DNA of 64,000 nucleotides from Zopfochytrium polystomum (taxonomy: Eukaryota > Chytridiomycota > Chytridiomycetes > Chytridiales > Chytridiaceae): NCBI GenBank assembly GCA_025765615.1, contig JAIVFJ010000223.1, positions 1-64,000 on the forward strand, read 5' to 3'. The translations under genes and the position numbers were made by a program. Below the pieces are notes generated by a model. That model was not told where the DNA came from and made no database searches. It saw nothing but the letters and a program-made list of their open reading frames with translations. Positions 5,034 to 41,933 of the stretch are shown one piece after another (positions within the stretch are counted from its first letter, which is position 1; each line of letters begins with the position of its first letter).

Positions 5034-5600
5034 TTATTGATCCAGCAAGATAGAAAGAGTATCCAATCTTTGATCTTCTGCCAACCTTTTTTGGAACCCT
5101 GGACTCTCCCAGAGTAATGACACCCTGTCATACGGAAAACCCTTCACCATGAGGCCAGCCACGTTTTTCACACGTGACAGAGCCACAAACGTGAGCCGAG
5201 TTGTTTGTTCTTTGGAGCCAATGTCAACATAAGCAGAAGCAAGTGTTTGCCCTTGACTCTTGTGAATTGTCATGGCATAGGCCAGCCTCAAGGGCAACTG
5301 TGTACGTGTTCCTCCATTAGTGCCATCAACTGATATCGGAGCGATAGCCACATATTTCTCATGTCCCTCAACACTGTTGTCAAAAGAGGGACCAGGAGCA
5401 GCATATTGGTCCATTTCAACCACCACAAACAGCGGCATTGCAGCGTTGTCAGATCCAAAAACTATATCCTGGACAGTACCAAGTGCACCATTTGTAAGCC
5501 CAACACGCTTCCACATATTTGATGTTAGGGCAACCCTTGCCCCAATGGCAATGTAAATGAAGTTCTCCAAGTTTTGAAAGTCCTTGGAATCCTTACTTCT
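5034..5600 (-). pseudogene. Pif1/Helitron helicase C-terminal part
   Basis: About 185 codons read open to a stop at 5034. The piece starts near the GARVAL-T-NMW motif and continues with GLTNGALGTVQDI, the accessory-domain sequence of Pif1-family helicases. It then shows LRLAYAMTIHKSQGQTL (motif V) and TRLTFVALSRVKNVAGL (motif VI with its arginine). In the family these contribute to ATP and DNA contacts in the 5'-3' helicase of Helitron transposases. The Walker A and B half is missing, so the fragment cannot be an active helicase. It is separated by only about 60 bp from the DUF6570 part, which reveals the internal deletion. Confidence 0.85.
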
Positions 5601-5624
5601 TGCATTCAGGATTATTGAATGCAG

Positions 5625-6924
5625 TTACCTAAACATTGGAGAGCGAAGCTGCTGCAGCTGGCCGCGGTTATGCTCCTCAACTGCAGAGTTCTGCTCTGTA
5701 AGAAGCTCCTCTGCCCCTTCTTCATCCACAATAGTTCCATAGGGGTTAAGGTCCTGCTCTTCAAGATCCTGATCCACAACAGCATTCTCATCAACCAATC
5801 CCTGACCTTCATCTTCATTATCCAAAGCAACAGGCAAGTCTGGAGGAACACCATTCTCTGGAAGACCATCACAAGCAGCCTGGTCAAACTGAACACAATG
5901 CTCAATAAAGTCAGGGTGGTTCTCCACCAAAAACCTTGCAATCATCTGCACTCTTGCTCTACAAACAGTCAAGTCTCTAGGTTGGCCGTGTTCATCTTGA
6001 TTTGCTCTGCGAACAACAATAACTGAAACTGCTGCTGGGAGGCGAGGGACTTGCTTCACAAACTCAATATTCTGCTGGCGAAAGTTTGCCACAAAGCCTT
6101 GGTGCACATTTCGGCCATGCGCAGCTGATAGACAGTCATGATGGAGGAACAGGAGAAAGCAGCATTTCTTCAACCATAGTGAGAGATCTCAGAGCTTGTC
6201 TTATTTCCAAATCAATGGTGGAGAATTCTGGGATCATGTCATTCTCAATTCCAAAAAGGGGAACCCAGCATTCTGGTGTTCCATCAGATCTGAATGGACT
6301 TCAGAACAAAAACAGTCAGCACTGGTTAACTTACCTTTTTTGCACTGGTCACGCTTAAAGTTGTTGGCCACTGGAAGTGGCATGTCTTTTGCTGGCCAAA
6401 GCTCTCTGCAAACAGTGCAGTGAAGTGAGTTGTATCAAGCCATTTTCTCGTGAAATTGAGTCATAGCAGTCTTTGCAAAAAGCTGCTCAATCAGAGGACC
6501 ATTTTCAGCTGCATCAAACTGCTGCAAGTAGTCGCCTTGAGGAATTTGGTCCTACAGAATGCCAATAATTAGTTTGACTGAAGCAAATATGAAAAGTTAG
6601 TCAAAGAGAGCGAAACCTGTAGTGTTGGCTCATTTGCCTCATGACTCTCATTCTCAGGCTGTGGTTGTGCTGCGAAGCTTCCTCTGCTGCAACTTGTGCT
6701 TCACCATGAGCAAGTGCTTGAACACGAATGGGTGGATGAATTGGAGCTTGAGTTGCTCCTCCAACTGGAAGTCTTCTCTGTGCGGAGGCCCTTGAGACTG
6801 CTTGGCGCAGCACAGCATCAGTGGCAGCTTGGACCTGAACAGCAGCCTCTCGAGCGCGACAATTGGCTTCCTTTTGTTCTTCAGTCAGTTTCAGTCTGCC
6901 AGCTCTTGATCGTTTTGGACCCAT
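5625..6924 (-). pseudogene. Helitron transposase N-terminal part (DUF6570-like)
   Basis: It starts at an ATG at 6924 (MGPKRSRAGRLKLTEEQK), a basic N-terminus common in these proteins. Further on (about 6380-6450) is HCTVCRELWP, the Cys motif preceding DUF6570, then, around a possible GTAAGT donor near 6353, ENDMIP and RSLTMVEEMLLSPV. After another frame change come NVHQGFVANFRQQ and VPRLPAAVSVIVVRR, core DUF6570 sequence. At least one in-frame TGA (near 6440) and two frameshifts break it. An acidic stretch rich in E, D and Q ends the frame just before the helicase tail. Confidence 0.75.
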
Positions 6925-13694: not shown

Positions 13695-15150
13695 TGTGAG
13701 ACTACACCAAGGTCTCAGTGATAAAGTCTAGGATTTTATTCGCAAAAACAAGCATACCTGTCATAAAACCGCAAGGATCGGGACCCCTATTATTGCTCCC
13801 GGTTCATTAGTTTCCAAGGCGTTATCAAAGTATATTTGCGGCTAACCCGTCTTTATTATTGGGCCTGCTTTTACTACTTTCGTCTTAACAGTTTCCGTTG
13901 CGCCAGGGTTTTCTCAACATATTTTCTTTTTCGGTGACTAACAGAGACTGCCCGACTGCCTAGGGATGGGGTGCCTGACAGGACGTACCCCAAGACCGCC
14001 TAATTTATTATTTATTTTCGGCACTTGTACATACATGCATAGGGTTGGGGGGGACTTAGAGCATTTGTGGTGGATGCTCCAAGTCAGGGGGGTTGACTTG
14101 TCAATTTTCTCTCTCTCTGTTTTTGGGCCATTTCTCTTTTTCCTTTTTTTCTTCAATCTGATTTCTGTCCATTGGCACCAATACAGGGTCCCTTCAAATC
14201 CATCTGGCTCGCAAAGGTGAGGGTAGTGAGAGATGGTACACACCTGGGTGTGTACATGGTCCCTTCGTGGGGCTCCTCTTAAGGGGCCGTGGGTGGGGAA
14301 TGTAGCTGGCCCCACCAGCGACTGTGTGACATTGCCGGCTCTGTGTTGGAGTGAGGATCCCTGGCGCTTGCCTGCCGCGACGACGGTGGTGGTGGTGGTG
14401 GCGACGACGGCGTCATCGTCCCCAACCTTCCCGTCCCTGTGAGGGTGTTGGTGGCGGCGCCTGGTGCAGCCCCCGACACCTGAGAGTTCGATCTACAAGC
14501 GCCTGCCTCGGTCCTATTGCTGTGAGGGTGAGATGTGTGAGTACGAGTGCGATGCGATAAAGCCCGTTGGTTGAGTGATTGTGCCGACGCAGCCCGGCGG
14601 GGTGCGTGTACGATCGCAGGTGTTTCTGCGTGCGAGTTCCCTGCTGGCGACCTTCCGGCCCCTACATAGTCCACTCCCTTCTCTCTCTCCCCCCTGTCGC
14701 TGGCGACGACGAGGGCTCCCGCAGCACCGTCTGCGACGAGGGGCGCTAGGTCGCGCCCTGTCCGTCCCGTCACTATTAACCGCTCCTGTTGTATTTGAGA
14801 TTAGGTTCCTGAGATAAAACCCCCCGTTTCCCTCTTCTCTCTCTTTATTCTGCGGTTGTGTTGCGCCCTCGGGAGTGCCCTTCCGTTTCCCCCTCGCATC
14901 GGCCCGCGGCCACGCGAGTAATCGGTGCTCCAGCACCGATCCTTCAGAGGATTGTCCCTCTGAATGTTCATTCTTTGTGTTTGAGACCCCTGTTAGACAG
15001 ATCAGTAGGGATACTTCGTGGACTAGGCAGGTAGTAGGGTTGAAACACCCCCTAGACAACAGCCCAATAAAGTTAGTTTTAGCCTATTATTTGCTTTCCC
15101 TCACTCTAGGGCCCAGATCCCAGGGTCAAAGGAGTGAGTATAGTCTCACA
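13695..15150 (+). mobile_element. 1,456-bp TG..CA element, probable solo LTR, inserted in the LINE
   Basis: The element begins TGTGAGACTA and ends TAGTCTCACA, a perfect 10-bp inverted terminus, and is flanked by GAGG repeats. Short TGT..ACA inverted ends, a 4-bp target duplication, an AATAAA near the 3' end (15065) and absence of coding capacity fit a solo long terminal repeat. A DNA transposon or MITE with 10-bp inverted ends is the alternative. A 3' half copy lies at 23350-24090 and a 5' copy, inverted, at 35421-35835. It interrupts the LINE reading frame, so it is younger than that insertion. Confidence 0.65.
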
Positions 15151-16347: not shown

Positions 16348-19300
16348 TCAAAACTGAATGACAGAGGAAATGCCTCTGCCAAGGAGAAGAATTGAATGTT
16401 CGGTGAGGAATTGTTTACCACATCGAAATTCAGGAGGAAGCCAGAAAAAGGATTTGGTGTTGGTGGGAGAGAACCAAACACCATTTTCCATAACAGACAC
16501 AGAGGCAGTTTTACCACCCTGCAGTTTCCTCCCTGACACATCACGAACACAAAAACTCGATTGTTGGCTGCAAGAAACAGTTCCAGAAAGCCCAGCATTC
16601 TCTTGTAATTGGAGAGCAGTTGCAAGGTTGATGCAAATTGCTGTTCCGACCTTGTCCCTCAAAACAACAGACCGCCCATCAGCACTGAATCCATCAGATA
16701 CTGTGAAAGAGAAATATTTAATTGTGTGCATCAACTGCCAGTGGGCCTTGGTCGCCTCCTTAAACCAGCTTGAATCAGCTCTGTCAGTGGATGCGTTCCA
16801 AATCCGGACTGTCTTGTTACCACATCCAGTCACAACAAACTGCTCATCAGGACTGAATGCTGCAGACAAGACGAACCCAAAGCCTCCCTCCAGCTTGTGC
16901 ATCTCCTGGCCATTGGTTGCATTCCAAATCCTGGCTGTCATGTCAGCACTTCCAGACACGACAAACTGCCCATCAGGACTGAATGCTGCAGAGAAGACAC
17001 GATCTGTGTGTCCCTCCAGCTTGTGCATCTCCTGGCCAGTGGATGCATTCCAAATCCTGACTGTCATGTCAAAACTTCCAGACACAACAAACTGCCCATC
17101 AGGACTGAATGCTGCAGAGAAGACCCTTTTGTTATGTCCCTCCAGCTTGTGCATCTCCTGGCTGGTGGATGCATTCCAAATCCTGACTGTCTTGTCAAAA
17201 CTTCCAGACACAACAAACTGCCCATCAGGACTGAATGCTGCAGAGATGACTAAATTGGTGTGTCCCACAAGCTTGTGCATCTCCTCGCCAGTGTATGCAT
17301 TCCAAATCCTGACTGTATTATCCGAACTTCCAGACACAACAAACTGCCCATCAGGACTGAATTTTGCAGAGTAGACAACATCAGAGAGTCCCACCAGCTT
17401 CTTGCATTCCTGGCCAATGGATGCATTCCAAATCCTGACTGTATTGTCCCAACTTCCAGACACAACAAACTGCCCATCAGGACTGAATGCTGCAGAGAAG
17501 ACCCTTTTGTTATGTCCCTCCAGCTTGTCCATCTCCTGGCCAGTGGATGCATTCCAAATCCTGACTGTCATGTCATCACTTCCAGACACGACAAACTGCC
17601 CATCAGGACTAAATGCTGCAGAGTTGACCCTTTTGTTATGTCCCTCCAGCTTGGCCATCTCCTGGCCAGTGGATGCATTCCAAATCCTGACTGTCATGTC
17701 AGCACTTCCAGACACAACAAACTGCCCATCAGGACTGAATGCTGCGGACCTGACCTCTTTGGTGTGCCCCTCCAGCTTGTGCATCTCCTGGCCAGTGGAT
17801 GCATTCCAAATCCTAACTGTTTTGTCCTCACTTCCAGACACAATAAACTGCCCATCAGGACTGAATGCTGCAGAGGTGACAGAACTGGTGTGTCCGTTGA
17901 GTTTGTGCATCTCCTGGCCAGTGGATGCATTCCAAATGACTGACTCGTCCCCACTTCCAGACACAATAAACTGCCCATCAGGACTGAATGCTGCAGAGGT
18001 GACAGAACTGATGTGTCTGTCGAGCTTGTGCATCTCCTGGCCAGTGGATGCATTCCAAATCCTAACCGTATTGTCAGCACTTCCAGACACAACAAATTGC
18101 CCATCAGGACTGAATGCTGCAGACCAGACTCCTTTGCTGTGTCCCTCCAGCTTGTGCATCTCCTGGCCAGTGGATGCATTCCAAATCCTGACTGTCATGT
18201 CAACACTTCCAGACACAATAAACTGCCCATCGGGACTGAATGCTGCAGTGAAGACCCACCCGTGTCCCTCAAGGACATTCATGCAAGTTGGCCAAGCTGT
18301 TGGCTGCCCTTTGACAACTCTTGGGCACAACAGATCTGCTGGCAACATCCCTCCAAATTTCCTGTGAAATTCACAGCCACTTGGAGAGAAAGGAATGGCA
18401 GTGAAATAGACCTGCAAAGCTGATGCCTTGAGTGGAATGAGAAACTTTTGCAAAACTCTTTTCATGTCCGTCATCAACGTTTCCAAGCTTTTCTTTGCGG
18501 AACCATTCAACAAAGTCTGAAGTTTTGTCATGGCAGGAATCACCAGGTTGAGTGAGTCCAACAAGCTGCAGGCCTCCATGAAGTGATGTCCATGATTTTC
18601 AAGTAAATCTTGCAACTCATCCAAGAGACTGTTTTTTGTCGTCTGATTCTCCACAGAATTCACCTTTGGGGGGGCTTCCCTTGAGGCGTCAAAGCAGTGC
18701 TCCCAGAAGTGCTTCACTGCATATTGGACAAGCTCTGGGATCCCTTTTGCAACTTTTTCATTGAAATCAGGGATCTCAGTGTGAAATTCGTCAAATGGCA
18801 GATCACACATATTGAACTTTAGATTCTTGTTCAGTGCACTGATGCACAGTCTTGCAAATCGTGCATGACCCTCATTCACCTCAGTCCTGACAGACAGCCC
18901 ACATCGCGATGGGTCAGTCAGGTAATCCTTCACAGACTTGTGGAAAATCCTGATCTTCTTGGAGGAGCCGTCAAGTACAAGGATTGGATCAAGCATTCTG
19001 ATGCATCTTTTCACGTTTCCAGGGCTCTTCCCATCCAGCAGCGACACCATGGCTGCTGCAGTCAGCGGTTCATAGGCAAGGACAATGATTGACAGCACCG
19101 TGTGAAGCAAAGGTTCCAACTGGCTCAATTTGGCTGAGTCCCAAATGCCAGCAAAGATTCTGTCATACATTGTATCAATGCGGCCATTCATCTGGTCACC
19201 CTCTGGCAGGGCGTTGATCTTGTCAAGAGAGATGACCTCAGTGCAGGAGTCCCTCAGGTAGGTGCAAGCAGTCACAAGCCAGACAAAAATCCCAGAGGAC

Positions 19301-21531
19301 TTTGAAACAAGAAGCTTGGATCCCTCATCAACCACAGGTTGTGCAGCATTCAAGGATTTGAGGAAAGCTTGTGTGTACTCAATCTGGTCTTGAGTGTTCT
19401 CCTCGGCAGTTGGCTCAATTTCAGTGATTGGAATCATTTCAAAGGCCTTTGATATATCTTCTTCGGGGCGTCCAGTCACCAGCATCTTCACATTTGAAGG
19501 AAGCATCCTGTTCAGTTCCTGAAACACTGACAGAATGTCACTCCTCTTGCCAACAGCACCACACTCGTCCAGGGCATCCACAACAAGCACAACAGGCACA
19601 TCCAGCTGCTTGGTGTCAACAACACTCTGCAGCGGCTGAATAAGCAGCACCTTCATCATCTCAAACACAGATCTGGACAAAATATCTGGATTGTCTTGCT
19701 TGACTTGAAGAAGAATTACCCCAAACTGAAAGCTAAACTTTGCTAGACTGAAAACCAGGGTCAGGACCAGGTTGCGAGCACTGTTGCGACATTCATCGTC
19801 ATGCTTGCAAAAGAACATGCCACCAAGCATTCCAAAAGCCTCCAGCTCTCTGGAGACCATGGCAGCCATCACAGACTTGCCCACTCCAGCCACACCCTTC
19901 AACCACATCACCCTGTTGGTGCTGGCTGCTGAGGGTTTGTCTGGTGACAGGAACTGAAATACTCTGTTGACGAGCCACTGCCTGGATCCAGAAAGCAAAT
20001 TCTTCAGAAGGGCCTGCCTTTCATCGTCCATGATGTCAGACAGGGGAGTCAGCCACGTTTCCAATTCATTCAATCTGGGTCTGGAGAGTGAAATATCTGA
20101 ACTTGCATAGAGAGTCTTCATTTCAGCTTTCCTACAACTGTACACATTCCTTGCAACAGTGACAACCCTGTTGTATATCCAAAGTGAAAGTTGTGTGAGG
20201 AGGGTTCAAGAAACACAACAAACACAAAATGCAAGTGCATACTTGAGGACTTCATCGCTTTTTCTATCTGCAAAGGGGCCATTCAGCTCCAGCACCATCT
20301 TGACAGTTTCAGACACAGTGTGGCGCCGAGGGCTCAAAGGATGAGCATGAAGTGATTTTGGAAACTTGGAGTAATCAAAAGTGCTGAACTTGTTCTCCAC
20401 CAACTCCTTCCTCCCGTTGTCGAGAGTTGCAGTCACCTGCTCAGAAAGAAGAACTGGCAGGATGTCAACTCCTCTCTCTTCCTTCATCTGAAGTGCAAGT
20501 TCCCACTAACAGTCACGTTTAGCAACATCAGAAATCAGATCAACAAGCTCACCTCCAACAAGCAATTGTCCAGCTTTTTGTCAGCCTCAAGCATCCACTT
20601 CATGCTCGAATCAGAACACAGCAGAATAATAACTGAAGAGTGATACAAGCCCGACATGTAGTTGATGTCCCACTTCTGGCCAAAAGCAAGGCACTTTGCA
20701 TCCCAAAAAGCATGGAGACCGCTCATTTTGGTCTCTTTGGGAAGAGCAGTGCCACTGAAAGATTTCAACAAGGCTTTCTCCAATTCATGGAAAAGTTCCT
20801 TGGCAAACACTGTTTCTGATGCCTGGTGGTAGCTGTTTGCAGTTCAGATGATTGTTGGAACAAAACATGCAATGCTCAGACCTAATAAAGAAAGGATGCC
20901 TTTGAACACCAGTCTCACACTCCCAATCTCTTGGAATCAACCCCATCCACTTATCTGAAGGAGAGTTTGAAACAACAAGGGTGAGTCTCTGATGATCATT
21001 CCTGAACTGCACAACTCACCCTTGTCAGGCACAAGGCTCTCATCAAAGCTATCACCATCAGCCGATGCAGCAGTGGGATGGGTAACTCCAGGACCATTAG
21101 CAACTGGAACAGTGCCATTACCACCACCAGCAGCAGCCGTGGTTGTGCTTGCTCCAGATGCAGTGGGAACAGTCTGGGTCACTCCAGGTAGGTTCGAAAC
21201 AGGAACAGCAAGCACCTTAAAAAATTTTTCAGAAAGAAATGAAAAAAGCAGAACAACTGATGAGAAGCAAACGTACTTTCCACTTCAAATGCTGAGAAAG
21301 CAGGCTTGCCAGGTCATCTTTCACATCGAGGATCATTTTACCACCAGTTGCAGAGTCCACATACACCAATTCAATGGGACCAGTGATATTCCATCGTGAA
21401 GCCACAAGCTGGTGCAGGTCGGCAAAGCTGGTGCTGGCAGGAACTTCAATCTTCCTTCCAGTATCACCAAGCTCAAAAACCACAGTCCAGGAATTCACTT
21501 TGCTCGTCATATTTTTCACAAGCACAATCAA
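16348..21531 (-). CDS. PB1-TIR-NACHT-WD40 protein (fungal NLR-type receptor)
   Basis: Minus-strand exons as I read them: PB1 exon ending at a GTACGT donor near 21276 (5' start not found); linker exon about 21214-21020; TIR exon 20832-20553; 20505-20243; and 20167-16348 (stop). Introns 20506-20552 and 20168-20242 are clean GT-AG. PB1-like: GRKIEVPASTSFADLHQLV with acidic IELVYVDSATGGKMILD. TIR: HAFWDAKCLAFGQKWD, SGLYHSSVIILLCS, DNCLLE joined by splicing to WELALQ, then DILPVL; the Glu of LLEWE is the likely NADase residue. NACHT: Walker A GVAGVGKS, Walker B VVLVVDALDECG, sensor LVTGRPEED. The C-terminus has twelve WD40 repeats of 42 residues, nearly identical. The strand linking the linker exon to the TIR (20833-21019) does not splice cleanly, so the 5' part is provisional and could be damaged. 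Likely role: self/non-self recognition with WD40 sensing, NACHT oligomerisation and TIR signalling. Confidence 0.85.
16795..18270 (-). repeat. Coding tandem array: twelve 126-bp WD40 units
   Basis: Each unit encodes AAFSPDGQFVVSGS..TVRIWNASTGQEMHKLEGH with few changes. Variation concentrates just after the GH and just after VSGS. Unit 3 lacks one codon (VIWNAS instead of VRIWNAS). Plus-strand ORFs across the array are antisense shadows. Confidence 0.95.
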
Positions 21532-23349: not shown

Positions 23350-24090
23350 CAGTGGTGGTGGTGGCGACAACAACAGCGTCGTCGTCCCCAACCTTCCCAT
23401 CCCTGCGAGGGTGTTGGTGGCTGCACTCGGTGCAGCCCCTGACACCTGAGAGCTCGATCTGCGAGTGCCTGCCTCAGTCCTATTGCTGTGAGAGTGAGAT
23501 GTGTAAGTACGAGTGCGATGCGATAAAGCCTCTTGGTCAAGTGATTGTGCCGACGCAGCCCAGTGGGGTGCATGTACGATTGCAGGTGTTTCTGCGTGCG
23601 AGTTCCCTGCTGGCGACCTTCCGACCCCTACATAGTCGACTCCCTCCTCTCTCTCCCCCCCGTCGCTGGCGACGACGAGAGCTCCTGCAGCACCGTCCGC
23701 GACGAGGGGCGCTAGGTCGCGCCCTGTCCATTGTGTTTGAGATTAGGTTCCTGAGATAAAAACCCCTGTTTCCCTCTTCTCTCTCTTTATTCTGCGGTTG
23801 TGTTGCGCCCTCGGGAGTGCCCTTCCGTTTCCCCTCGCATCAGCCAGCAGCCACGCGAGTAATCGGTGCTCCAGCACCGATCCCTCAGAGGATTGTCCCT
23901 CTGAGTGTTCATTCTTTGTGTTTGAGACCCCTGTTAGACAGATCAGTAGGGATACTTCGTGGACTAGGCAAGTGGTAGGGTTGAAACACCCCCTAGACAA
24001 CAGCCCAATAAAGTTGTTTTAGCCTATTATTTGCTTTCCCTCACTCTAGGGCCCAGATCCCAGGGTCAAAGGAGTGAATATAGTCTCACA
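23350..24090 (+). mobile_element. 3' half copy of the 1,456-bp LTR-like element
   Basis: Aligns with 14380-15150 with a few percent differences and one gap near 23727, ending in the same TAGTCTCACA at 24090. The 5' half is missing; the left join is in GTGG-rich sequence at about 23350. Confidence 0.8.
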
Positions 24091-31223: not shown

Positions 31224-31305
31224 CGACAACGGCAGGACTCGAACCTGCGCACCCAAAGAGTAACAGATTTCGAGTCTGTCGCCTTAACCGCTCGGCCACG
31301 TTGTC
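31224..31305 (-). tRNA. tRNA-Ser(CGA)
   Basis: Complete class II tRNA: acceptor GACAACG/CGTTGTC, D-arm, anticodon arm ACAGA-CTCGAAA-TCTGT, long variable arm, T-arm GCAGG-TTCGAGT-CCTGC, discriminator G. Confidence 0.93.
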
Positions 31306-31684
31306 CGCACAATGAGACAGTCATGATGACTTTATTCCCCTTATTGATATGCAGCTGTTGGCAGAAAGCCCTCCCCAGGAGTGAACTGTTGCAGCAGCCA
31401 AACAGAAGCCAAACATCCAAAGACAATTAGCGAACAGCAACTCTGGTCTTTCTAGGAGACTAAGACACCCTGTTGCATCACACTGATGAGGCCGAAACTC
31501 CATGGTGTATGTGAGCAAAGTAGGGGCCATGGCTCTGGATCAATTCCTATCAATTTGTCAGTGTAAAGCAATATGACGTGGTGTCTGGCCTGTGGAATGA
31601 AACCTTGAGGACCTTACCAAGCACTTGCACGTAGCTCAAACACCATTAGGAGAAGTGTACTGCTCATTTGTGAATCTTCAACAA

Positions 31685-31756
31685 TGGAGGCAGTGGGGTT
31701 CGAACCCACGGCATCTCGCATGCAAAGCGAGCTATCTACCACTGATATATACCCCC
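31685..31756 (-). tRNA. tRNA-Ala(TGC)
   Basis: GGGGGTA/TGCCTCC acceptor with wobbles, anticodon arm CTCGC-TTTGCAT-GCGAG, T-arm GTGGG-TTCGAAC-CCCAC, discriminator A. Confidence 0.9.
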
Positions 31757-32457
31757 GTCATTTCGGAGGCAATCACAGATGAGCAAATACCAAAAATAAA
31801 GAAACTCCTCTTAGAGTCCATCAGGGTAATGGCCTGCTGCACCGACTGGCTGCCCCTACCATTCATAACATCGTGTTGCTCTTTCTATCCAAGTTAGGGA
31901 GAAGGACCACCCACAAACACACATCTCCACTTCATTCACTCCTTCCACTCACTCACTCAGAGTAGACTTTTGACAGCATAGACTGGGAACCACTGGAAGG
32001 GTGCACAAGACATGATAAGTTTATGATGCGCTTCGAATCCAGCCAAGTGTCTGGTGGAAGGAGGTTTACAGCAAAATCCAACAGTCAGAGATCCCTTAAG
32101 AGGGAGAGACTACTGCTCACATTTGGCAATGCAGCTACTGGGCTAAATGCGCCGTGCACAATCGAGCAGAGTGGGAGTCAAGCCCATGCCGCTGGAGAGA
32201 CCAGAGCCTTAATCTGGTGCCTTCGGCAGTTTGGCCAACTCGACCAATCTGCCCATGGACATGCAGCCAAGTGCTTAGGGTCCACTTTGGCAGCTACTGC
32301 ACTTTGGTCTTGCTGTGCATGTGCTACTGCTTGTGAATCCCAGCAGTTGCACACAAGTTGTTCTAATTTGATTCCATCACAGGAAACTGATGAGGGGCAA
32401 ATCCACGCTGCCCCAGTGTGCAACAAGCACACACAAGCCTGCGTCTCGCAGCTGCCG
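31757..32457. other. Spacer with dispersed repeat copy
   Basis: 31889-31970 holds the first copy of a repeat (GGAGAAGGACCACCCACAAA..CACTTCATTCACTCC) seen again at 33938-34014 and 50106-50160. Otherwise nothing recognised. Confidence 0.6.
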
Positions 32458-32529
32458 CTCCCAGTCTGGGAATTGAAACCAGCTCTACTCTGTGACAGGT
32501 GGTGATACTAGCCACTATACTAACTGGGA
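32458..32529 (-). pseudogene. tRNA-Asp(GTC)-like, anticodon stem mispaired
   Basis: Acceptor TCCCAGT/ACTGGGA pairs fully, D-arm is normal, anticodon loop CTGTCAC gives GTC, but the anticodon stem ACCAC/AGAGT has three mismatches and the T-stem one. Confidence 0.6.
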
Positions 32530-32942
32530 CCGGTCAGACTGCTCCTGGAGAGACTGTTTTTGGCTTGTGTGTGTCAAGATTCTTCAACTGAACAAGAGAT
32601 GGGGACTCCCGAGTTGCAGAGTTGTGGCAGATTTGGCAATGTTCTTCCTCTAAGTGCGCAAGCTGTTTCTTGTTTTTTTTATAACGTGTCCCACGCAGAG
32701 GCACTCATCAGCCAAGCTCGGCATCTCAGCAAACTTTTGAATGTGACAGCCAAAAGCCCTCCCTCCCACCAGAGCAACTTGTAACTCTTGACATGAAGCG
32801 GGAGACTACCAAAAAAAACTAATTTTTTTTCCGCTAAGGTGGGATAAAGGTCAGATCTCCTAAAACACGATACAATCAATGTTCTGCCAACGATGGAAAC
32901 GCTGGTGGTTGATGCAAAACCATGCATTGCCCCGGCACCTCT
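32530..32942. other. Spacer, nothing recognised
   Basis: No feature supported. Confidence 0.4.
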
Positions 32943-33014
32943 AATCACCACCCCAGGTCGCACTCGGGTCCCCAGAATCAGGATCTGATGTGATAACCCA
33001 TACACTATACAGCC
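32943..33014 (-). pseudogene. tRNA-Gln(CTG)-like relic
   Basis: Strongly similar to the intact tRNA-Gln(TTG) at 43678-43749 through acceptor 5' strand, D-arm and anticodon arm (loop TCCTGAT, anticodon CTG). The T-loop is GTGCGAC and the 3' acceptor does not pair. Confidence 0.65.
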
Positions 33015-34030
33015 ATTCCGGGAATTGTTTGTCAAGTAAGATGGCAGTTTGTGTTTTCTCCAGAGGTTGGTGCACTGTTACTAATTAGGCTTGCCTGAGG
33101 AGAGGTTACACTAACTTGGAGAGTTTCTTGCGTGGAATCAATCAAACTTTTGGGCCATAAGCTGGCAGCAATTTGCTCCTGAATGAAAGGGATTTTGGTG
33201 CTTTGCCTTTTTTTACAGTCTGTGTAGCAGTTTTCCTTTTTTGCAGTATTCTTCTGGGGCTCTCTGATGTTGGAGTTGCTCCTGAGCGTAGGACAACTTG
33301 TGTTAGAAGTATCAAGTGGCTAGAGTTATCGACAACCCAGCTCATAACAAGATTAGCCAAACTAATCTCTCTCCAAAAACCTGTTCGACAAAGCATCTAT
33401 GATAAGCAACACATTGAACTGACCAATCAAAGTGACAAAGACTCAGCTACTACTGCACCAGAAATCACCATACCAACCAGCTATCTGGCTATCTGCCTCT
33501 CCATATCATTTGAACAACAAACAGCAGAGGACCTCAAAAACCAACTGGCTCCATCAACTAATAATCAATCTGCTAGGTGATTTGCTCTTCTCTTTGATAT
33601 GCATCAAAATGTGTGGCGGAACTGACTGGTTAGCAGCAAGAGGCACAAAACAGGCCCGAACCTATTGTGACTGTCAGTTATCGTTCTCACAATGCCCATG
33701 GGAGAGCGAGCCACTGCCAATGCAGACCTGGGTGCTGGCTTGTGCTGTTGACAAATACTCTGAGTATTACGTGGAACAGAAACCCTGTGTCAACAGTTTT
33801 CCTCCTCCTCTGCTCAAGCAGATAATGTAGAAGAGGTTTTTACCCTGTGCCAGTCACGCTTGCCTAGCAGCTATTACTGCGTGTATATCATCATCATGTA
33901 TCAATAATTCATAACAGAGTTTTTTTTTCTCTTTCTCTCCAAGTTGGGGAGAAGGACCACCCACAAACACACATCTCCACTTCATTCACTCCTTCCACTC
34001 ACTCAGAGTAGACTGTTTACACAAAGTAAC
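33015..34030. repeat. Spacer with two dispersed repeat families
   Basis: 33600-33830 resembles 41240-41415 (phrase AACTGACTGGTTAGCAGCAA and CAAGCAGATA). 33840-34014 resembles 50005-50160 (phrases CAGTCACGCT, GCATAACAGAGTTTTTTT / CATAACAGAGTTTTTTTT and GAGAAGGACCACCCACAAA). No coding seen. Confidence 0.65.
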
Positions 34031-34645
34031 TGCCTTTATCCTCTCAACATACAGCCGTTCAGTCTCCTGTCAGTCCTGTGACTCATTTCTAAATGCTTTG
34101 AGTCTGCAATATTCTTTCAGGATTCATCATTCCATGAAGATCAAAATAGGCATTTCAGTTTTTGGAGACCTGCACCACTGACAACTGCCCCTGTGCCCTG
34201 TTAATAAGGCTTGCTCAATTTCAACAGGGCACAACAAATAAGAATTTAATGATATGGTGTTTTGCTTGCCTATCAACCCATGGAGTTGGCAGTTCAATTC
34301 CTGGATTCCCTGATACAATTATCATCGACATGGCCGCCTTTTTAGACCAGAGTGTTTTAAACCACACTGTAACTCTCACTATCAAACATATTTGTGATTG
34401 GGATGACCAATAGTTATGCAAGTGCCAACTCTCACAACTATGGCAACCTTGTGCAATTTCCTCATGACTTTGGGCTCTGTTGCATCAGGCTAAGCCTCTC
34501 TTTATCTTTCCTCACATAACTTCAGCCAAAGACAATTTGCTGTCCATTCATTGATAGAACAAGGACTGGTTGAGTAGTTTACGATCCTCTAACCATTTTG
34601 CCAGTGCAACATCAAACAGCATCTTCCACTTAGGGGGGAAGATGC
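34031..34645. other. Spacer, nothing recognised
   Basis: A weak T-arm-like phrase near 34285-34300 was not accepted as a tRNA. Confidence 0.4.
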
Positions 34646-34673
34646 TGTTATGAATCACCCTCTGGAAACCTCT

Positions 34674-34727
34674 GGAACCTTCTAGAACATTCCTTCATGG
34701 AACGTTGTGGAGCCTTCTGGAACCTTC
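34674..34727 (+). promoter_or_regulatory. Heat-shock-element-like arrays
   Basis: GAAccTTCtaGAAcaTTC at 34675-34692 gives four alternating units with exact 2-bp spacing; TTCtgGAAccTTC at 34715-34727 gives three more. This matches the nTTCnnGAAn consensus bound by trimeric HSF. It lies 115-165 bp upstream of a TATA box. Confidence 0.65.
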
Positions 34728-34841
34728 TTTGCTTTCCTGACTTGTCTTGTTGTTGACATTGGTATCATTGGTATCATTGTATTACTAATTGCTCTTTCTG
34801 GAACTTTCTTTGAGTTCTTGACAAGGAAAACTCTCAAAAGG

Positions 34842-34848
34842 TATAAAA
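34842..34848 (+). promoter_or_regulatory. TATA box
   Basis: GGTATAAAAGAGGGGCC, an ideal TATA context downstream of the HSE-like arrays. Confidence 0.65.
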
Positions 34849-35208
34849 GAGGGGCCGCAAGTGAATTATTTTTGCCAATACAATCATCACTCCTCTCAGT
34901 TCCTTGTCTGCTTGTCCTGTCCTGCCCTGTTCCTGACAGGTGTCAGGAAAAGCAGACTTGTCTGCACTCTCCACCTGCAGCAACGGGTTGGTCATCAGTG
35001 CCACTGAACAAACAATTGTGATAATAACGCTGCAAGATGACAGTAGGTAGCTGCCTTCTACTGCTGTGATAAGGTCATCAGTGTGATTCCTGCAGAAGGC
35101 ACTATACTGCGTTGTGCTGGTCAACCTGCCACCCACACAACTTTGTGCGCAACTAAGGCAATAACTGCAACAGAGGAGCTGAGCAAGCCGGTTTTGCAAC
35201 ACTCTGTC

Positions 35209-35290
35209 CGACAACGGCAGGACTCGAACCTGCGCACGGAAACTGTAACAGATTTCTAGTCTGTCGCCTTAACCGCTCAGCCCCATTGTC
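35209..35290 (-). tRNA. tRNA-Ser(AGA)
   Basis: Acceptor GACAATG/CGTTGTC (one wobble), anticodon arm ACAGA-CTAGAAA-TCTGT giving AGA, long variable arm, T-arm GCAGG-TTCGAGT-CCTGC. Near-identical to the Ser(CGA) gene except the anticodon and variable arm. Confidence 0.92.
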
Positions 35291-35420
35291 TGTGCCTCCT
35301 GCCCAATAGGCCACTCTCAATAGGTACTTACCAGTGCCACTTGCAGGCAGCTCCAAACCTGGATGTGCAGCAGCAGCCTGATATTGCACTGATCCACAGA
35401 CAACTTCAGTCCCTGGCTTT

Positions 35421-35835
35421 TGTGAGAAAATTGACAAGTCAACCCCTGACTTGGAGCATCCACCACAAATGCTCTAAGTCCCCCCAACCCTATGCATGTA
35501 TGTACAAGTGCCAAAAATAAATAATAAATTAGGCGGGCTTGGGGTACAGCCTGTCAGGCACCCATCCCTAGGCAGTCGGGCAGTCTCCGTTAGTCACCGA
35601 AAAAGAAAATATGTTGAGAAAACCCTGGCGCAACGGAAACTGTTAAGACGAAAGTAGTAAAAGCAGGCCCAATAATAAAGACGGGTTAGCCGCAAATACA
35701 CTTTGATAACGCCTTGGAAACTAAAGAACCAGGAGCAATAATAGGGTCCCGATCCTTGCGGTTTTATGACAGGTACGCTTGTTTTGCGAATAAAATCCCT
35801 AGACTTTATCACTGAGACCTCCGTGTAGTCTCACA
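35421..35835 (-). mobile_element. 5' copy of the 1,456-bp LTR-like element, inverted
   Basis: On the minus strand it starts TGTGAGACTACAC at 35835 and aligns with 13695-14112, with substitutions and small gaps. The remaining about 1,040 bp are missing. Confidence 0.85.
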
Positions 35836-36626
35836 CTTTGGCTTGCCAATGGCCCAACACTAAATTTAAATCATCCAAAAAGGTGATTCTCCTGGTTTGT
35901 TTTCATGAAAAGAAATGGTGCCAAGTTGGAAAGCACCAGCTTGCCTAAGTGTGCTTGTGCTTTTTGTCAGTTTGGGAATTTTTAAGTGGCAGAGGAGAAA
36001 GGGGCGTCCAAAAATTTGAGCTCATAGGGAGTGTCCCTGTCAGCTCAAGGAGGATTTCTGTTGCTGCATCACTGCTGCTTTGCCATTGCATTTGCCACAA
36101 CACCATTGCATCCTGCTTGACTGCCGCCACACACAGTGCTGCTTCCTCACACCCAGCTGTCAAGCCCCACACTTTGTCTTGACCTGTTCTCCAAAGGGAT
36201 TGTCCTGGAGCGCCACGCTCCATGGTCTGCCAGGATATGCCAGAGAGTGCATGCAACAGGTCAAGATGAGACTGATTCAGAGGTGGCTTTACATTTCCTG
36301 CTTCTAAAGCAGGCACCTGAGTAAGGATCCATGGGGCGTGCCTGGTGAAAACCTGCAGAGGTGGGTTGATTGTGGGATGGACAGGGTCTGAAATTTGCAC
36401 CAACAATCACTTTTCCTATTTGTTCATTCACTTCAACTGGCTTGCGTGATGGAGTATTCAATTTCTAACAAAATCAGATCCTGGGAAAAAAGCACAGAAA
36501 CAATTTGAAGTGATTTAGCAGAAAAAAAGCAGCCAGTTGCAGTCAAGTGAAAGCCAAGCCAGTCCAGGACTGGAGTCTGACCCTGGAAGTGGAAGCTCCA
36601 TCCAGCAAGTGAAGGCCAACTGATGG
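35836..36626. other. Spacer, nothing recognised
   Basis: No supported gene or RNA. Confidence 0.4.
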
Positions 36627-36697
36627 CTCCCAGACGGGGTGTCGAACCCAATCGCCGCCGTGAAAGGGCGGAATCTTGACTGTTAGACAATCTGGGA
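36627..36697 (-). tRNA. tRNA-Glu(TTC)
   Basis: Acceptor TCCCAGA/TCTGGGA, anticodon arm CCGCC-CTTTCAC-GGCGG, T-loop TTCGACA with one T-stem mismatch. Divergent to the tRNA-Met 131 bp away; this pair is the apparent source of the truncated copy at 822-1099. Confidence 0.82.
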
Positions 36698-36828
36698 ATA
36701 GGAAAAACTAACAAAGCTTGCATTGTGATTGCGTGGCATGAGGAGAATCCTCCAGCCATGTTCCACTAAAACAAGTGAGAAAATGGCAGGCACACAACAA
36801 GAGATGAAGTGCACCTACTTGTTTGATG

Positions 36829-36942
36829 GCTCTGGTGGCTTAGTTGGTTAAAGCGTCGGTCTCATACATGACACACCTGGTTGCACAGGTGCTCCTCCAC
36901 ACAGTCATCCGAAGGTCGTGAGTTCGACTCTCACCCAGAGCA
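36829..36942 (+). tRNA. Elongator tRNA-Met(CAT) with 40-nt intron
   Basis: Acceptor GCTCTGG/CCAGAGC, D-arm GCTT-AGTTGGTTA-AAGC, anticodon loop CTCATA then a 40-nt intron inserted after position 37, T-arm GTGAG-TTCGACT-CTCAC, discriminator A. The T31-T39 mismatch is normal for elongator tRNA-Met. Confidence 0.93.
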
Positions 36943-37030
36943 CCCCTTTTCCTTCCACTGGCTGGTTGGAGCACTTTCTCCTTGAAAGGAGAAATGGCAA
37001 TTCTGTGCAGACATATGGCGGGAAGATTTG

Positions 37031-37113
37031 GATTTTGAAGTTTAGTGGTAAAATAGACGCCTTCCACCCGTGGGAGATAGCATCAGCCCCGGGTTCTATT
37101 CCCGGTCAGCGCA
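37031..37113 (+). pseudogene. tRNA-Gly(TCC)-like, 5' acceptor strand lost
   Basis: D-arm GTTTAGTGGTAAAAT, anticodon loop CTTCCA with a probable 12-nt intron, T-arm CCGGG-TTCTATT-CCCGG and 3' acceptor TCAGCGC are fine. The 5' acceptor (GATTTTG instead of GCGCTGA) cannot pair. Confidence 0.6.
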
Positions 37114-37532
37114 ATGGTTAGTCAAAGCTGCTTTTACTGATTGCGCTTGCAATTGGATTTTGAAGATTTTCATGAGGTTGGTGTTACTGTGCTGACAGTG
37201 ATTTTTGTGGTCTGATCACATAGTTTGCCTTTGTTTACGCACCTGTGTTGTTTGCTTATTCCTTCAGTCAAGCTGCTTTAAATATTCTTGTGGCTGGTAG
37301 AGTTTGATGCATGATTGGCTGCAGCCATCTTGCAGAGATGTGTTGCGCAAGTGCTGCAACTGATCCACACACCAATCAAATTTCTTGTAAGCAAAGGACA
37401 CTGGTGGGGCCATGGAATGAGGGCTCTTTGTGGGACCCTGGTGCTCTTCCAGCAACACTGCAAAGAAACTTTTTCTCCAGTACCTATAAGTAGATTTAGT
37501 GATAAATGTAAAACGACATAAAAACATCCAGT

Positions 37533-37603
37533 GCAACAGTGGTTCAGTGGTAGAATTATCGCCTGCCACGCGGTAGACCTGGGTCCGATTCTTGGCTGTT
37601 GCA
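37533..37603 (+). tRNA. tRNA-Gly(GCC)
   Basis: Acceptor GCAACAG/CTGTTGC, D-arm GGTTCAGTGGTAGAATTAT, anticodon GCC in loop CTGCCAC, T-loop TCCGATT, discriminator A; 71 nt, no intron. Confidence 0.9.
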
Positions 37604-38701
37604 AGGTGGCGTTGTAGTCTCCTGCGCTGTTGTAAACTGTGAATTACATTGGACATGTCCCTGCAAATTTTTCTTGTTTTTTTATTTCTCCACTCCTCTC
37701 ACGTTTCCATCAAAAGCAAGAAAAGGACCAATCACCAAAGAAGTACTGTCTTCCCTTGTGTTTGGCGCAGTGTGGTGCCACTGGTGCTGTGCGATATTTG
37801 TTGGGTCTCTGAAGGAAGGGTCAAGGGAAAAGAGAATCAGTGACCCCACTCCATTCGTTTTTTATGGCTGGTGCGCACTGTGCAGTGGGAACCCCAATTC
37901 ACTCATGTTTCACAGCAGCCTCTCCTCCCCAAAGGTGTGGGTGCCTGGGCAAAGTGTGGCTGTGTCTTGGCTACAGAACAACAATGTGACAGTCGAGAAA
38001 TTGTGAGAGATTGGCTTAGCAGGCAACTGGCAGACTGGCCTGCAGGAGCTGCGTTGATGCAGAAGCAGCCAAAGCAGCAAGGTTTCTGATACCATGAGAT
38101 CTTTTCTATTTCTCATTGTTGATGAAAAAGGTTGCAGTGTTGGGGAAAAAAAAGGGAAAGGAAAAGCATTTGTAAGGACAAAAAAGGAAGTACAATCCTC
38201 TTCTACAGCAGGGGAATTTGCTCAGCCATACCATTGTTCTGAATTGCAGGAATAGTGCCTGCATGACTTAATCTCCCTCTTTTACAATACTGGCAGTGGC
38301 AAGTCCTGGAATTCCTGGAGTATCCAAGGCTCAAGCTCATACACGTGCCAGCACTGCTGTACAGCAACTGGATGATTGGGCTAAAGCAGGTTGCCCTTGA
38401 AAATTTCCCCTAAGCATCATCTGAGTGTGAGGATGACAGGCTGTCGAGCCTGTGACCTCAAATAAATTAAGTGTATACCCACTTTTTAACTGGTAATTGT
38501 GAGGATTACCACCCCGTCTCGACCTGCGTTTTGCTGGCAAAACGTGACTAGGCTTGGATTCCTACTCTCTTATTATTTATTGGGTTTCCATACGGCCTCC
38601 GACTGGCTCTGTATGTCTGCCTCTGAGCTCTACTATTATTACTTATTATTGGCGATGTTGCAGACAGAAAGACTCAGTCTTGATTCTGATTGCTGATACA
38701 A
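37604..38701. other. Spacer, nothing recognised
   Basis: No gene, RNA or clear repeat. Confidence 0.4.
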
Positions 38702-38772
38702 GGTTCCCTTGCTCAGTGGTTAGAGCGCTCCCTTCAATTGGGAAGGTGCCAAGTTCGAGACATGCTAGTTGA
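38702..38772 (+). pseudogene. tRNA-like relic, isotype unclear
   Basis: D-arm GCTC-AGTGGTTA-GAGC and a stem CTCCC..GGGAA around TTCAATT are seen, with a T-loop-like TTCGAGA, but acceptor strands do not pair. Confidence 0.4.
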
Positions 38773-40682
38773 CAGACTGGGCAGAAATGCAAAGTCCTAC
38801 TATGCCTGGCCAATGGCCCCTCACTTTTGGAAATGACTTAGGACTGAAACACTTCTGTGGGAGAAGTGCTAAGCCCAGATGGACAGAGTTAACAAGATGA
38901 TGGCAGAGCTAACAAGCCCTACCACCTGCTACCATGATGTAATACCTCATAAAAAGGGTATGAGATCACAGGGTTTTTCTTTATCTTTTCATTGGTGATT
39001 TTTACTTATTTTTCCAATTAGTAATTTATCCTGTTTTTCCTGTTTTTCCTGTTTTCTCTTTTATTTCTTCCTTGTTGTCTCTGTCTGTGTCTTTTCTTTC
39101 TTGTGTGGCTGAGAGTGACTGTCTTCCTCTTTGCACCAACCAGCTCTCTCCATCTCCTCCATCTTTCTTGGCAGCTGATGCCAAGAAATGCTCCATGATT
39201 TTCTGAGCTGTCTTCCTTGTTTGATGGCTCAGCCCCATTGTTTGGTGACTCACTCCTCCACTCTCTTCTTTGCTGTTTTATTTATTGTTTTGTTCTTTTG
39301 TATATGTTTTCCCCTCTTTTCCCTTCCTTCTTCCTTCACCCTGCTGATTCCAACCCTTTCCTATTTAAGCAGCTGCCCCCCATCTTGTTGACTGTGAGAA
39401 CCTGTGCCTGAAGTCCCTTGCCTGCCCTTTTCTTCCTGACTGTATGTAGAGCTGGGGGTGGCAGTCCCCTGGTGTGTGACAGGAGGTTGAAGTCCTCTTG
39501 GCCATGATGGCAGTGTGCTGGGTTCAAGCCCCAGTGCACCTCACCAATTCTGCATGCTGTTTAGGTTGGACTGGGTAGGAGCCACTTGGTGATGGAAGGA
39601 TGGAGGGTAAATCTGTGGTGGTGCCTCTAGGTTCCTGTCAATACATCTAGTCAAATCCAGGTCTCTCAAGGGGATATGAATGAGCTGTCTGGTCAGGTAC
39701 TGCTGCAGGAATGGTCTCTCAGGTATGCCCCCTCCTCCCTGGTTGTTGGCTCCTGTGGCCTCTGGTGGGCCTGGTCTTCACTGGGTTCAGACCCTCTTTC
39801 TCTCAGATTAATGCCTGTGATGTCATGGTGCCACATTTGGGTGAGGGAGTGGGTGTTAACCTTCCTTGCTTCTAAGATAGGGAATTCCTCTGGCTTGGTG
39901 AAGCAGATGTCTGTGTCCTAGTAGGATGAAGTAAGAAGAGTCCCACTGTCTCCCACCCCTGTGTGCCCCCTCCTTGGATTGAGTTGGAACTTCTCCTTGG
40001 AGTGAGACAAGTTGTGTCTGGTTCTGTTAAGTGGAAAACAGTTCTGATTTAATTCAACAGACACCTCTGCACACTAACTGTTCCTTGTGTTTGCCCTTTG
40101 TGTCCAACCCCCTCCAACTTAGGGCTTGTCTTTGACAGAGAGGGAGCCTTGCTCCATGGTGGTGGCTCCAACAGACCGGGGTCTGGCCACTTTCCTCCCC
40201 ACTCTCTTGTCTTCTTCAGTTGGATTGGAGTGCTGCACTTAGTGCCGCTCCCTGGAGCTTGTTGCATCTTGCACCTCCAGTATTGTTACCGGATTTCCCG
40301 GTCCCCTTTGGCTTTGGCTTTTGCCTCCCATTGGGCCCACTCTGTGTCATGGACCAGAGAACCCTGCACATTCTTTGCTAGTGTGCCACCTTTTCACAGT
40401 TGCCTTTGGTCTGAGTGTGAGAGTCTTCTCTTTGTGTGTAATAAGAGAGTTTTCTTTGTGTTTCTTGGGCTTCTTAAGACTCCAAATACATTGTCCTGTC
40501 TAGTGACCCCTAGACATCTCCTTTTTGCCCTTTTTCACTTTTCAGGATTGGTATTTAGGCCATTGCTCTATTTGCCACCCATAGCCCAGGGTGAGGATTT
40601 AGAGAGCACAGTCTCACATGAGGATCACTTAGGAGGACAAAGTTGCAAGCCATCCAGTTGCGTGCTCACCACAGAAATTCTC
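38773..40682. other. Spacer, nothing recognised
   Basis: About 1.9 kb of T-rich DNA. A T-arm-like phrase CTGGGTTCAAGCCCCAG at 39517-39533 has no cloverleaf around it. Confidence 0.45.
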
Positions 40683-40754
40683 AACTCTATTCCAGAATTG
40701 AACCCGGGTCTACCCCGTGACAGGGGATGATACTAGCCACTATACTAACTGGGA
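40683..40754 (-). pseudogene. tRNA-Asp(GTC)-like, 3' end degraded
   Basis: Acceptor 5' strand TCCCAGT, D-arm and anticodon arm (ATCCCC-TGTCA-CGGGGT, anticodon GTC) are good; the 3' T-stem and 3' acceptor no longer pair. Confidence 0.6.
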
Positions 40755-41873
40755 CTGCACTATTCCCTCACACTTGTATTTACAATTTCTATAGAGATTT
40801 TAGGATCTCAGGTTTCTGTAAAATTTTCCAATCAAGAGCTGAAGCCCTTGTTGCCAATAGCCCACTTCATGCCCTGTTGGAAATTACTTCTTGATTGGCT
40901 GGCTCCACTTATCATGTGAGGTCCCTTTCAAGGTGCTGGAACCAAAAATCCGAACAAAGGATATCTGTAATGCTCCATTGGCGCTATGGCACCCGTCATT
41001 TGGGTGTGACAGATATGTGGTACAATAAGAATCCAGTGTTTGTCTCATGATCAGTTTAGGATACTGATATCCCTGCACACACCATGCTTATCAGCTCTGT
41101 TGACCTTTAGGGTTGATTCCGCAAAAAGCAGAAACAAGGTATCTATCATGAAAAACCATTGTGCAGTTTGCTGAAATTTGTTTTGTGTTGCCAACACCCA
41201 CACAGCCACAACCAAGAACACCTTTGCGCTGGCCTTTTCATGTTAGGCAGAACTGACTGGTTAGCAGCAAGAGGCACAAGACAGACCTGAACCTATTGTG
41301 GCTGTCAGTTATTGTGATACACTGGCTTGCACTGTTGACAAAGACTCCGAGTATAGTGGAGCAGAAACCCAGCGAAAACAGTTTCCACCTCCTCCAATCA
41401 AGCAGATAGTATCCCTGCTAAGTAAGAACATAAGACACAAATGCATTGGTTGGATAAGGGTCAACATAGCATTGCAAAAGCGCAATCTCCGCAGCACCTA
41501 CTGACTACCGATGGCTGTCAGCATGGATACCCTTAGCAACGTTGAATCAATTCCGTGATGTTATCACTCCACTGGTTCCTCTGAATTGGATTTTTTTTTC
41601 AGGATTATATCAGGAAATGGACCCTTTTGACCTAACCTAACTGAGCCCCCAAGCCTTAAACTACACACCTTTGTTGTCAACTGCATGACCATTCTTGGCA
41701 TTCGACGTATATCCAGCTGCACAGCCAATTGCTGCAGCCAATGCCCTCCCCCTTACCTTATCTTGGACTGCCTTCAGACACTGAGTATTGTCACTGGTAC
41801 TTGTGCAATAACCTCGCAAGTCGCAGGACCAGTTTGCAGCCCATCTGCAAGCTCCAACCATAGCTCTGCGCAT
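40755..41873. repeat. Spacer containing a dispersed repeat
   Basis: 41240-41415 is a second copy of the family seen at 33600-33830; the rest is unrecognised. Confidence 0.55.
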
Positions 41874-41933
41874 GACTGTAATGGTTTCTGCCTGGTGCCA
41901 TCATGAGGTCCCCAGTTCGAACCTGGGTGGTCA
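41874..41933 (+). pseudogene. tRNA-like relic with intact T-arm
   Basis: T-arm CCCAG-TTCGAAC-CTGGG is perfect and outer strands GACTGTA/TGGTC partly pair, but D and anticodon arms cannot be drawn. Confidence 0.3.

Follow-up and report, generated by a model that had tools for sequence, protein, structure and literature searches.

The receptors most closely resembling the gene described here are the HET-E/HNWD proteins of Podospora anserina, in which a NACHT domain is joined to an array of highly similar WD40 repeats and HET occupies the effector position. According to Paoletti and colleagues (PMC1805685), the Podospora family has 10 members, and diversifying selection acts strongly on its WD40 codons 7, 9, 25 and 27, which flank the conserved codons 8 and 26. 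A 2025 paper lists positions 10, 11, 12, 14, 30, 32 and 39 as diversified and gives 11 repeats for the commonest reactive HNWD alleles (PMC12222747). Here, we analyzed the first 64 kb of contig C223 (JAIVFJ010000223.1; 101,833 bases) in the assembly GCA_025765615.1 of the chytrid Zopfochytrium polystomum (80.16 Mb in 761 contigs). This stretch of 64,000 nucleotides, referred to as the window, contains a minus-strand gene of six exons (coding sequence 21510-16348; 1621 amino acids; zero internal stops in a spliced open reading frame model) encoding, from N- to C-terminus, a PB1-type domain, a linker, a TIR domain, a NACHT NTPase of the signal transduction ATPases with numerous domains (STAND) class and 12 WD40 repeats. 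Like HNWD, it combines NACHT with highly similar repeats that vary at positions 10, 11, 12, 14, 30 and 32, and a divergent C-terminal tail follows its 12 repeats. It differs by possessing TIR where HNWD possesses HET, an extra PB1, and a PB1-TIR-NACHT order found at at least 78 loci.

Two other groups of receptors invite comparison. Plant TIR-NB-LRR receptors, exemplified by flax L6, also place TIR ahead of a STAND NTPase, and L6 gave the best score against the Protein Data Bank (PDB), with a glutamate in register; however, they carry NB-ARC and leucine-rich repeats (LRR), whereas the chytrid gene carries NACHT, WD40 and an N-terminal PB1. Crinkler-type fungal NOD-like receptors (NLRs) begin with a beta-grasp module of the ubiquitin clan as well, but their N-termini in the excerpts of PMC9815663 are not PB1 and appear in no combination with TIR. 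For chytrids, the 2014 survey by Dyrka found no NLRs (PMC4986451). Wojciechowski 2022 states that TIR had been reported in NLRs of Chytridiomycota, citing four works (PMC9815663), so the existence of chytrid TIR-NLRs has been stated before; one of the four, PMC7075850, says that TIR occurs in archaea and fungi. NACHT-PPR-WD40 receptors of Mortierellomycota have been ascribed to transfer from endosymbionts (PMC11291939), and the terms PB1, TIR and NACHT co-occur in a plant work (PMC9786959). A literature search that left most subscription papers and all bioRxiv preprints outside its scope returned no PB1-TIR-NACHT-WD40 protein, no expansion of one and no HNWD-type code in a chytrid. An earlier note on this DNA, made from the sequence alone, had called the exact combination undescribed: this stands for the combination with PB1 in the literature searched, and has to be given up for chytrid TIR-NLRs as such, which PMC9815663 already mentions.

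Results

A TIR domain in the effector position and a NACHT-type NTPase

We found that the effector segment of the window gene matched the Pfam family TIR_2 (E=3.8e-9; 37.5 bits against a cut-off of 28). This was the sole family matched at E up to 1, and HET was not among the matches. Fragments from eight further chytrid sequences, a set excluding the window's own TIR, all matched TIR_2 with E values of 1 or less; the first scored 27.8 bits, just below the cut-off. When a profile of the chytrid TIR fragments was compared with PDB sequences, 21 matches were obtained at E up to 10, flax L6 being the best (4e-4). Twenty of these are TIR proteins, among them L6, Cat1, tir-1, SARM1, AbTIR, Roq1, AT1G72930 and TcpB; the remaining match, 4lzp, is titled putative uncharacterized protein. 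The NAD (nicotinamide adenine dinucleotide) hydrolases SARM1, tir-1 and AbTIR were thus among the matches. A single-sequence search of PDB with the window TIR, in a model lacking the first strand, yielded zero matches, and the eight-member profile alone succeeded; NCBIfam gave nothing above cut-off for TIR or PB1. The TIR identity proposed in the earlier note is borne out by the curated Pfam cut-off and by the profile matches, and we regard the domain call, made by sequence comparison, as secure.

The glutamate of the LLEWE motif, Glu261, was aligned by HMMER with the E of LMEL in flax L6 and the E of ELEQ in Cat1, both of which are catalytic residues. It was E in 34 of 35 distinct exon-4 translations, the remaining one not covering the position, and the matching residue was invariant in the eight aligned chytrid fragments. 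The earlier suggestion that this residue is the candidate catalytic glutamate agrees with both observations.

Downstream of TIR, the NACHT region scored 87.3 bits with NPHP3_N (cut-off 24.8), 25.7 bits with PF05729 NACHT, just below its cut-off of 26.7, and 13.4 of 23.5 bits with NB-ARC. With the last below its cut-off and WD40 at the C-terminus, the protein lacks the NB-ARC and LRR that define plant TIR-NB-LRR receptors; it has the NACHT-type NTPase with Walker A and B motifs and the C-terminal superstructure repeats of NLR/STAND NTPases. By NPHP3_N and the Walker motifs, the NACHT call is likewise a secure prediction. In a PADLOC scan of the window protein, Avs2 alone was returned (E=0.059), for the NACHT part. 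The motifs named earlier (FWDAKCL, LLE/WELAL interrupted by an intron, GVAGVGKS and DALDECG) were all found in that order, and every element of the proposed PB1-linker-TIR-NACHT-WD40 protein lies in the six-exon model, including the twelve WD40 stretches, which form a tandem array of 126-bp units.

The PB1-TIR-NACHT order recurs across the genome

Searches of the same genome with the TIR, PB1 and NACHT parts gave at least 89 TIR, at least 117 PB1-like and at least 133 NACHT merged loci. These counts are lower bounds, as the TIR search listed part of 192 matches and each search scored its best candidates only. Among the 89 listed TIR loci, 78 were flanked on the same strand by PB1 (up to 2 kb upstream) and by NACHT (up to 2.5 kb downstream), 4 had PB1 only, 6 NACHT only and 1 neither. 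Seen from the 133 listed NACHT loci, 78 had both partners, 15 PB1 without this TIR, 6 TIR only and 34 neither. The 15 seemingly TIR-less loci did not hold up as a separate class where we read them: a diverged TIR lay between PB1 and NACHT in four of four (one on C19, one on C11 and two on C14). Some copies of the family carry stops or are fragments.

The splice borders were conserved as well. GT/AG was kept at the exon 1 donor (27/27), exon 4 acceptor (34/34), exon 4 donor (32/32) and exon 5 acceptor (33/33), counted over distinct contexts reaching each border, window included, down to about 27-40% protein identity; the comparison covers these four borders. Because the order recurs in 78/89 TIR loci and GT/AG stands at all examined borders, the PB1-TIR-NACHT architecture is not due to chance, and this comparative evidence favors the earlier assignment of the PB1 and TIR exons to the NACHT gene. 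Median ratios of non-synonymous to synonymous substitution (dN/dS) were 0.28 for PB1, 0.29 and 0.29 for the two TIR halves and 0.22 for NACHT (12, 16, 15 and 18 comparisons, respectively, with dS between 0.05 and 1.5). Purifying selection acts on the PB1, TIR and NACHT parts.

A Pfam search of the genome returned 85 TIR_2 matches, one overlapping this family and 84 outside it. Twenty-five of those outside stand within 2 kb ahead of NACHT (of 85 tested; 26 with the family's own on C99), a count for which 86 matches and 40 further entries, one a dummy, were used. The earlier description of a fungal NLR with a TIR module fits these data; its premise that TIR is rare in fungi does not fit Zopfochytrium polystomum, with at least 89 loci and 84 TIR_2 matches. 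The second set of TIR domains ahead of NACHT, for example at C418:21144-22514, C436:6359-7495 and C57:327447-328577, was missed by the family's TIR search. Coexisting with the TIR expansion are 28 matches to HET, the effector domain of Podospora HNWD receptors, the best at C94:175760-176188. A close family member (C223:70700-77100) lies on the same contig and strand as the window gene, about 55 kb away; its NACHT is 99% identical and its WD40 code is different.

Deposited proteins of the same genome cover the family in part. The protein P0004, named partial, maps to the C19 locus with 100% identity over residues 1-476 and 477-641. Compared with their loci (L054 and L055, respectively), P0004 and P0007 begin within the NACHT exon and omit the PB1 and TIR exons; as these models leave out the short exons, TIR parts may have escaped notice elsewhere as well. 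P0002 and P0007 align to their own loci with gaps (95% and 90-99%), which would fit gene models with other introns, and P0001 and P0003 had no near-identical match among the loci compared.

Related proteins were found in other chytrids. P0008 of Cladochytrium replicatum resembles the window gene in combining TIR_2, NPHP3_N and WD40 in a single annotated protein, as do P0005 and P0009-P0012 of Nowakowskiella sp. JEL0407 with TIR, NPHP3_N and WD40-type domains. The five Nowakowskiella proteins align to the window TIR at 29-35% identity and have, by eye, beta-grasp-like segments ahead of TIR. All six are deposited as hypothetical proteins, and P0008-P0011 differ from the window gene in that PB1 is not among the best 25 families listed for each. 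P0015 of Blyttiomyces sp. JEL0837 has the same order, with a PB1-like segment at residues 609-669 (15.7 bits, sub-threshold), TIR at 798-908 and NPHP3_N at 968-1141, but differs by a TIR that by eye is of another subtype, by a longer composite protein and by the lack of WD40 among its nine families. A homology search with residues 143-345 of the window protein matched one protein.

WD40 repeats vary at the positions of the HNWD recognition code

Repeats were brought into the HNWD register by the conserved V and D between the variable pairs, which are spaced by 18 residues in HNWD and here alike. In the ten inner repeats of the window gene, the columns with most non-synonymous variation were 12, 14, 30, 11, 32 and 10, so six of the seven HNWD positions are variable while position 39 hardly varies. 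Non-synonymous diversity (pN) was 0.568 at these six positions and 0.061 at the other 36, and none of 100000 random six-column sets reached the observed pN. Its ratio to synonymous diversity (pN/pS) was 1.40 against 0.42 in the ten inner repeats and 1.21 against 0.54 when all 12 were included. An entropy analysis, which caught 11 of the 12 window repeats, placed all six positions among the top eight columns in the window and in three further arrays (C177, C19 and C223b), and five of six in C99; for these five arrays none of 20000 random six-column sets reached the observed entropy sum.

Outside the six columns the inner repeats share 89% amino acid identity, and at them 17%, with a mean DNA identity of 85% (78-94%). 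Over all columns of all 12 repeats, the mean amino acid identity of 70% is below the 80-100% quoted for HNWD, and the high internal conservation typical of HNWD is therefore found outside the variable columns only. Four-residue codes read from 53 repeats of five members comprised 36 distinct versions. From these patterns, the predicted contact residues of the WD40 domain look diversified for recognition.

Related exons support a PB1-type domain

PB1 was the sole Pfam family matched by exon 1 of the window gene. Related exons matched PB1 in 14 of 17 close relatives and 10 of 11 diverse members, two sets that share the window copy and three other loci (L014, L017 and L058). In a genome-wide Pfam search, 17 PB1 exons exceeded the cut-off, each followed by this family's TIR. 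A profile of diverse members compared with PDB gave NBR1 homologs first (E=0.0069 and 0.021), with MEKK3, ARF7 and PKC zeta lower down (E 0.29-1.4) amid unrelated proteins. The basic lysine and acidic OPCA surfaces, judged by eye, are visible in diverged members and reduced in the window copy. When seven diverse exons were scanned singly, PB1 was not matched by L054, ranked below another family in two and just reached the cut-off in L061, all of which counts against PB1. An alignment of PB1 with four chytrid fragments was dropped because it aligned poorly. The PB1-like fold proposed earlier is supported by the related exons, 17 of them above cut-off; the window copy alone stays sub-threshold, and its PB1 assignment is the weakest of the predicted domain calls. 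A homology search with residues 1-170 found no annotated protein within a length class of about 0.55-1.75 x 1621 amino acids.

PB1 without TIR or NACHT occurred at 21 loci, and both of those examined, on C13, look like broken fragments. At one site on this contig (C13:126663-134663), a broken PB1 exon lies beside a WD40 fragment, with frames matching Helitron_like_N and PIF1 helicase about 3 kb further on.

Discussion

A proposed receptor and what weighs on it

NACHT proteins assemble into oligomers once they contact a ligand, NAD is cleaved by the TIR oligomers of SARM1, plants and bacteria, and PB1 domains pair front to back. Considering these properties together with the predicted domains, we think it rather probable that the gene belongs to a large family of intracellular NLR-type receptors that sense through WD40, oligomerise through NACHT, signal through TIR and dock through PB1. 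The WD40 part would form a two-propeller clamp contacting a ligand. This may be a protein of a virus or bacterium, a host protein altered by a pathogen, or the non-self form of a host protein. Contact would free the NACHT ATPase to oligomerise, and the oligomer would draw the TIR domains together. Judged from the conserved glutamate, TIR probably signals by NAD cleavage: the assembly could cleave NAD+ via Glu261, either draining NAD or making a nucleotide signal, and the outcome might be cell death or growth arrest. Front-to-back PB1 contacts could stabilise the assembly or dock a partner or further copies. A bolder extension, which we advance tentatively and hold to be somewhat doubtful, is that about 80-100 receptors share one signaling head and differ by a combinatorial code on the propeller surface, PB1 linking the sensors into one polymer or hub whose TIR-derived nucleotide signals feed a common death or arrest pathway. 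A TIR-NLR immune system of about 80-100 receptors would be of the order of plant TIR-NB-LRR repertoires.

Several observations weigh against this reading. Synonymous diversity is also raised at the six WD40 positions (0.405 against 0.147), pN/pS was obtained by counting rather than by a codon model or formal test and ignores recombination between repeats, and the WD40 repeats were read in part of the family only. In six less uniform arrays of four to eight repeats each, variation is less concentrated at these positions, between 0 and 250 of 20000 random sets reaching the observed value, and hypervariable WD40 sites are solvent-exposed in ordinary WD40 proteins too. The window PB1 scores 13.9-14.4 bits, below the Pfam cut-off of 23.6, and by eye is without part of the acidic cluster present in diverged members. 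In the TIR halves, dN/dS exceeds 1 for a few near-identical pairs, where the counts are tiny, and some TIR domains are scaffolds rather than enzymes. The family counts may be inflated by alleles or duplicate contigs, because a locus on C66 and one on C191, as well as two loci on C83, have identical scores.

The scaffold role is the core of one alternative, in which TIR is non-enzymatic and NACHT oligomers recruit other TIR or PB1 proteins, as in animal Toll adaptor signaling. The genome would offer partners: the 84 TIR_2 matches outside the family, and 15 candidate PB1 proteins. Of the 35 Pfam PB1 matches, 16 had neither a TIR nor a NACHT entry after them, and one of these, C143:11154, is a family exon; the entries came from hand-chosen lists (17 of the family's TIR loci and a subset of the NACHT matches, with one NACHT entry mistyped). 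Yet retention of the NADase-position glutamate throughout the covering exon-4 translations and chytrid fragments exceeds what a scaffold needs, and we consider this alternative improbable. It is slightly less improbable, though still unlikely, that the receptors serve allorecognition between individuals, like HET-E in Podospora, rather than microbial defence. The match between their hypervariable WD40 positions and those of the HNWD allorecognition genes speaks for this. Heterokaryon incompatibility depends on hyphal fusion, however, which is not known to occur in this chytrid. A mycovirus survey moreover purified double-stranded RNA from Z. polystomum WB228 (PMC7482067), which makes viral pressure plausible.

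That PB1-TIR and NACHT-WD40 are separate adjoining genes, as some public models imply, is hardly credible. Such a split would agree with P0004 and P0007 beginning inside the NACHT exon and with the lack of matches to residues 1-170 in the length class searched, but it runs against the in-frame exon chain reaching exon 6, the recurrent order, the splice borders kept to the exon 5 acceptor and the single Cladochytrium replicatum protein P0008. Nearly as remote is a mobile-element-like or decaying repeat family with no present function. The 21 PB1 loci devoid of TIR and NACHT, of which one of two examined is close to a Helitron, and a dispersed repeat flanking the window gene are in its favor; the long open frames, and dN/dS well below 1 in PB1, TIR and NACHT, are against it.

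On the NLR-type receptor reading, an early-branching fungus may possess a TIR-based system for immunity or for self/non-self recognition. One chytrid assembly holds at least 133 NACHT loci, at least 78 of them with PB1 and TIR, in contrast to the absence of chytrid NLRs from the 2014 survey (PMC4986451). The effector slot filled by HET in HNWD is taken by TIR, and the WD40 recognition code uses the same positions. If a chytrid has diversified such receptors with no known need for heterokaryon incompatibility, the question of a defence or an allorecognition origin of fungal NLRs becomes testable, and the family is a place to seek TIR nucleotide signaling in fungi.

Gene model and neighboring features

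Coordinates of the gene are collected in Table 1. In an earlier model exon 3 ended at 20921 and the first TIR strand was missing; a paralog and the conserved HPFFI overruled this end in favor of the border at 20882, which lifts the TIR_2 score from 30.1 to 37.5 bits. The conserved segment of exon 3 is 42-100% identical in paralogs. By analogy with the HNWD model in PMC12222747, the C-terminal tail may leave room for cryptic propeller blades.

Table 1. Features of the PB1-TIR-NACHT-WD40 gene (window positions)
Feature	Position	Strand	Remark
Exon 1: PB1-type domain, aa 1-78	21277..21510	-	Weak here, above cut-off in 17 family members; donor GT 27/27
Exon 2: low-complexity Gly/Thr/Ala/Pro linker, aa 79-143	21020..21215	-	By eye
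Exon 3: W..LIP.DW.C...VQ.HPFFI segment into first TIR strand (HPFFI/S), aa 144-168	20882..20954	-	
Exon 4: TIR N-terminal part; FWDAKCL 20708-20688; candidate catalytic Glu261 20555-20553	20553..20832	-	
Exon 5: TIR C-terminal part (WELAL ... HPLSP), aa 262-349	20243..20505	-	
Exon 6: NACHT/STAND NTPase, C-terminal WD40 domain and stop	16348..20167	-	
NACHT/NPHP3_N domain, aa 429-608	19390..19929	-	Pfam match
Walker A GVAGVGKS	19896-19873	-	Motif in NACHT/NPHP3_N domain
Walker B VVLVVDALDECG	19593-19558	-	Motif in NACHT/NPHP3_N domain
12 WD40 repeats, 126-bp units, aa 979-1481	16771..18279	-	Tandem array
C-terminal tail, aa 1482-1621	16351..16770	-	Divergent (cryptic) propeller blades could fit

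The receptor gene is flanked by direct repeats at 14386-15150 and 23352-24090, which are about 750 bp long, 90% identical, on the same strand and about 8.95 kb apart. A 371-bp piece of this repeat matches 40 scored places in the genome at 98% or more (763 candidates at first look), and the repeat is therefore a dispersed element; the flanking copies could have aided duplication of the receptor locus. Elsewhere in the window, frames at 5037-6188 on the minus strand match UvrD_C_2 below threshold and DUF6570 above it and look, by eye, like a Helitron-like helicase remnant. A loose cluster of tRNA genes was found by ARAGORN and Rfam at 31224-45049.

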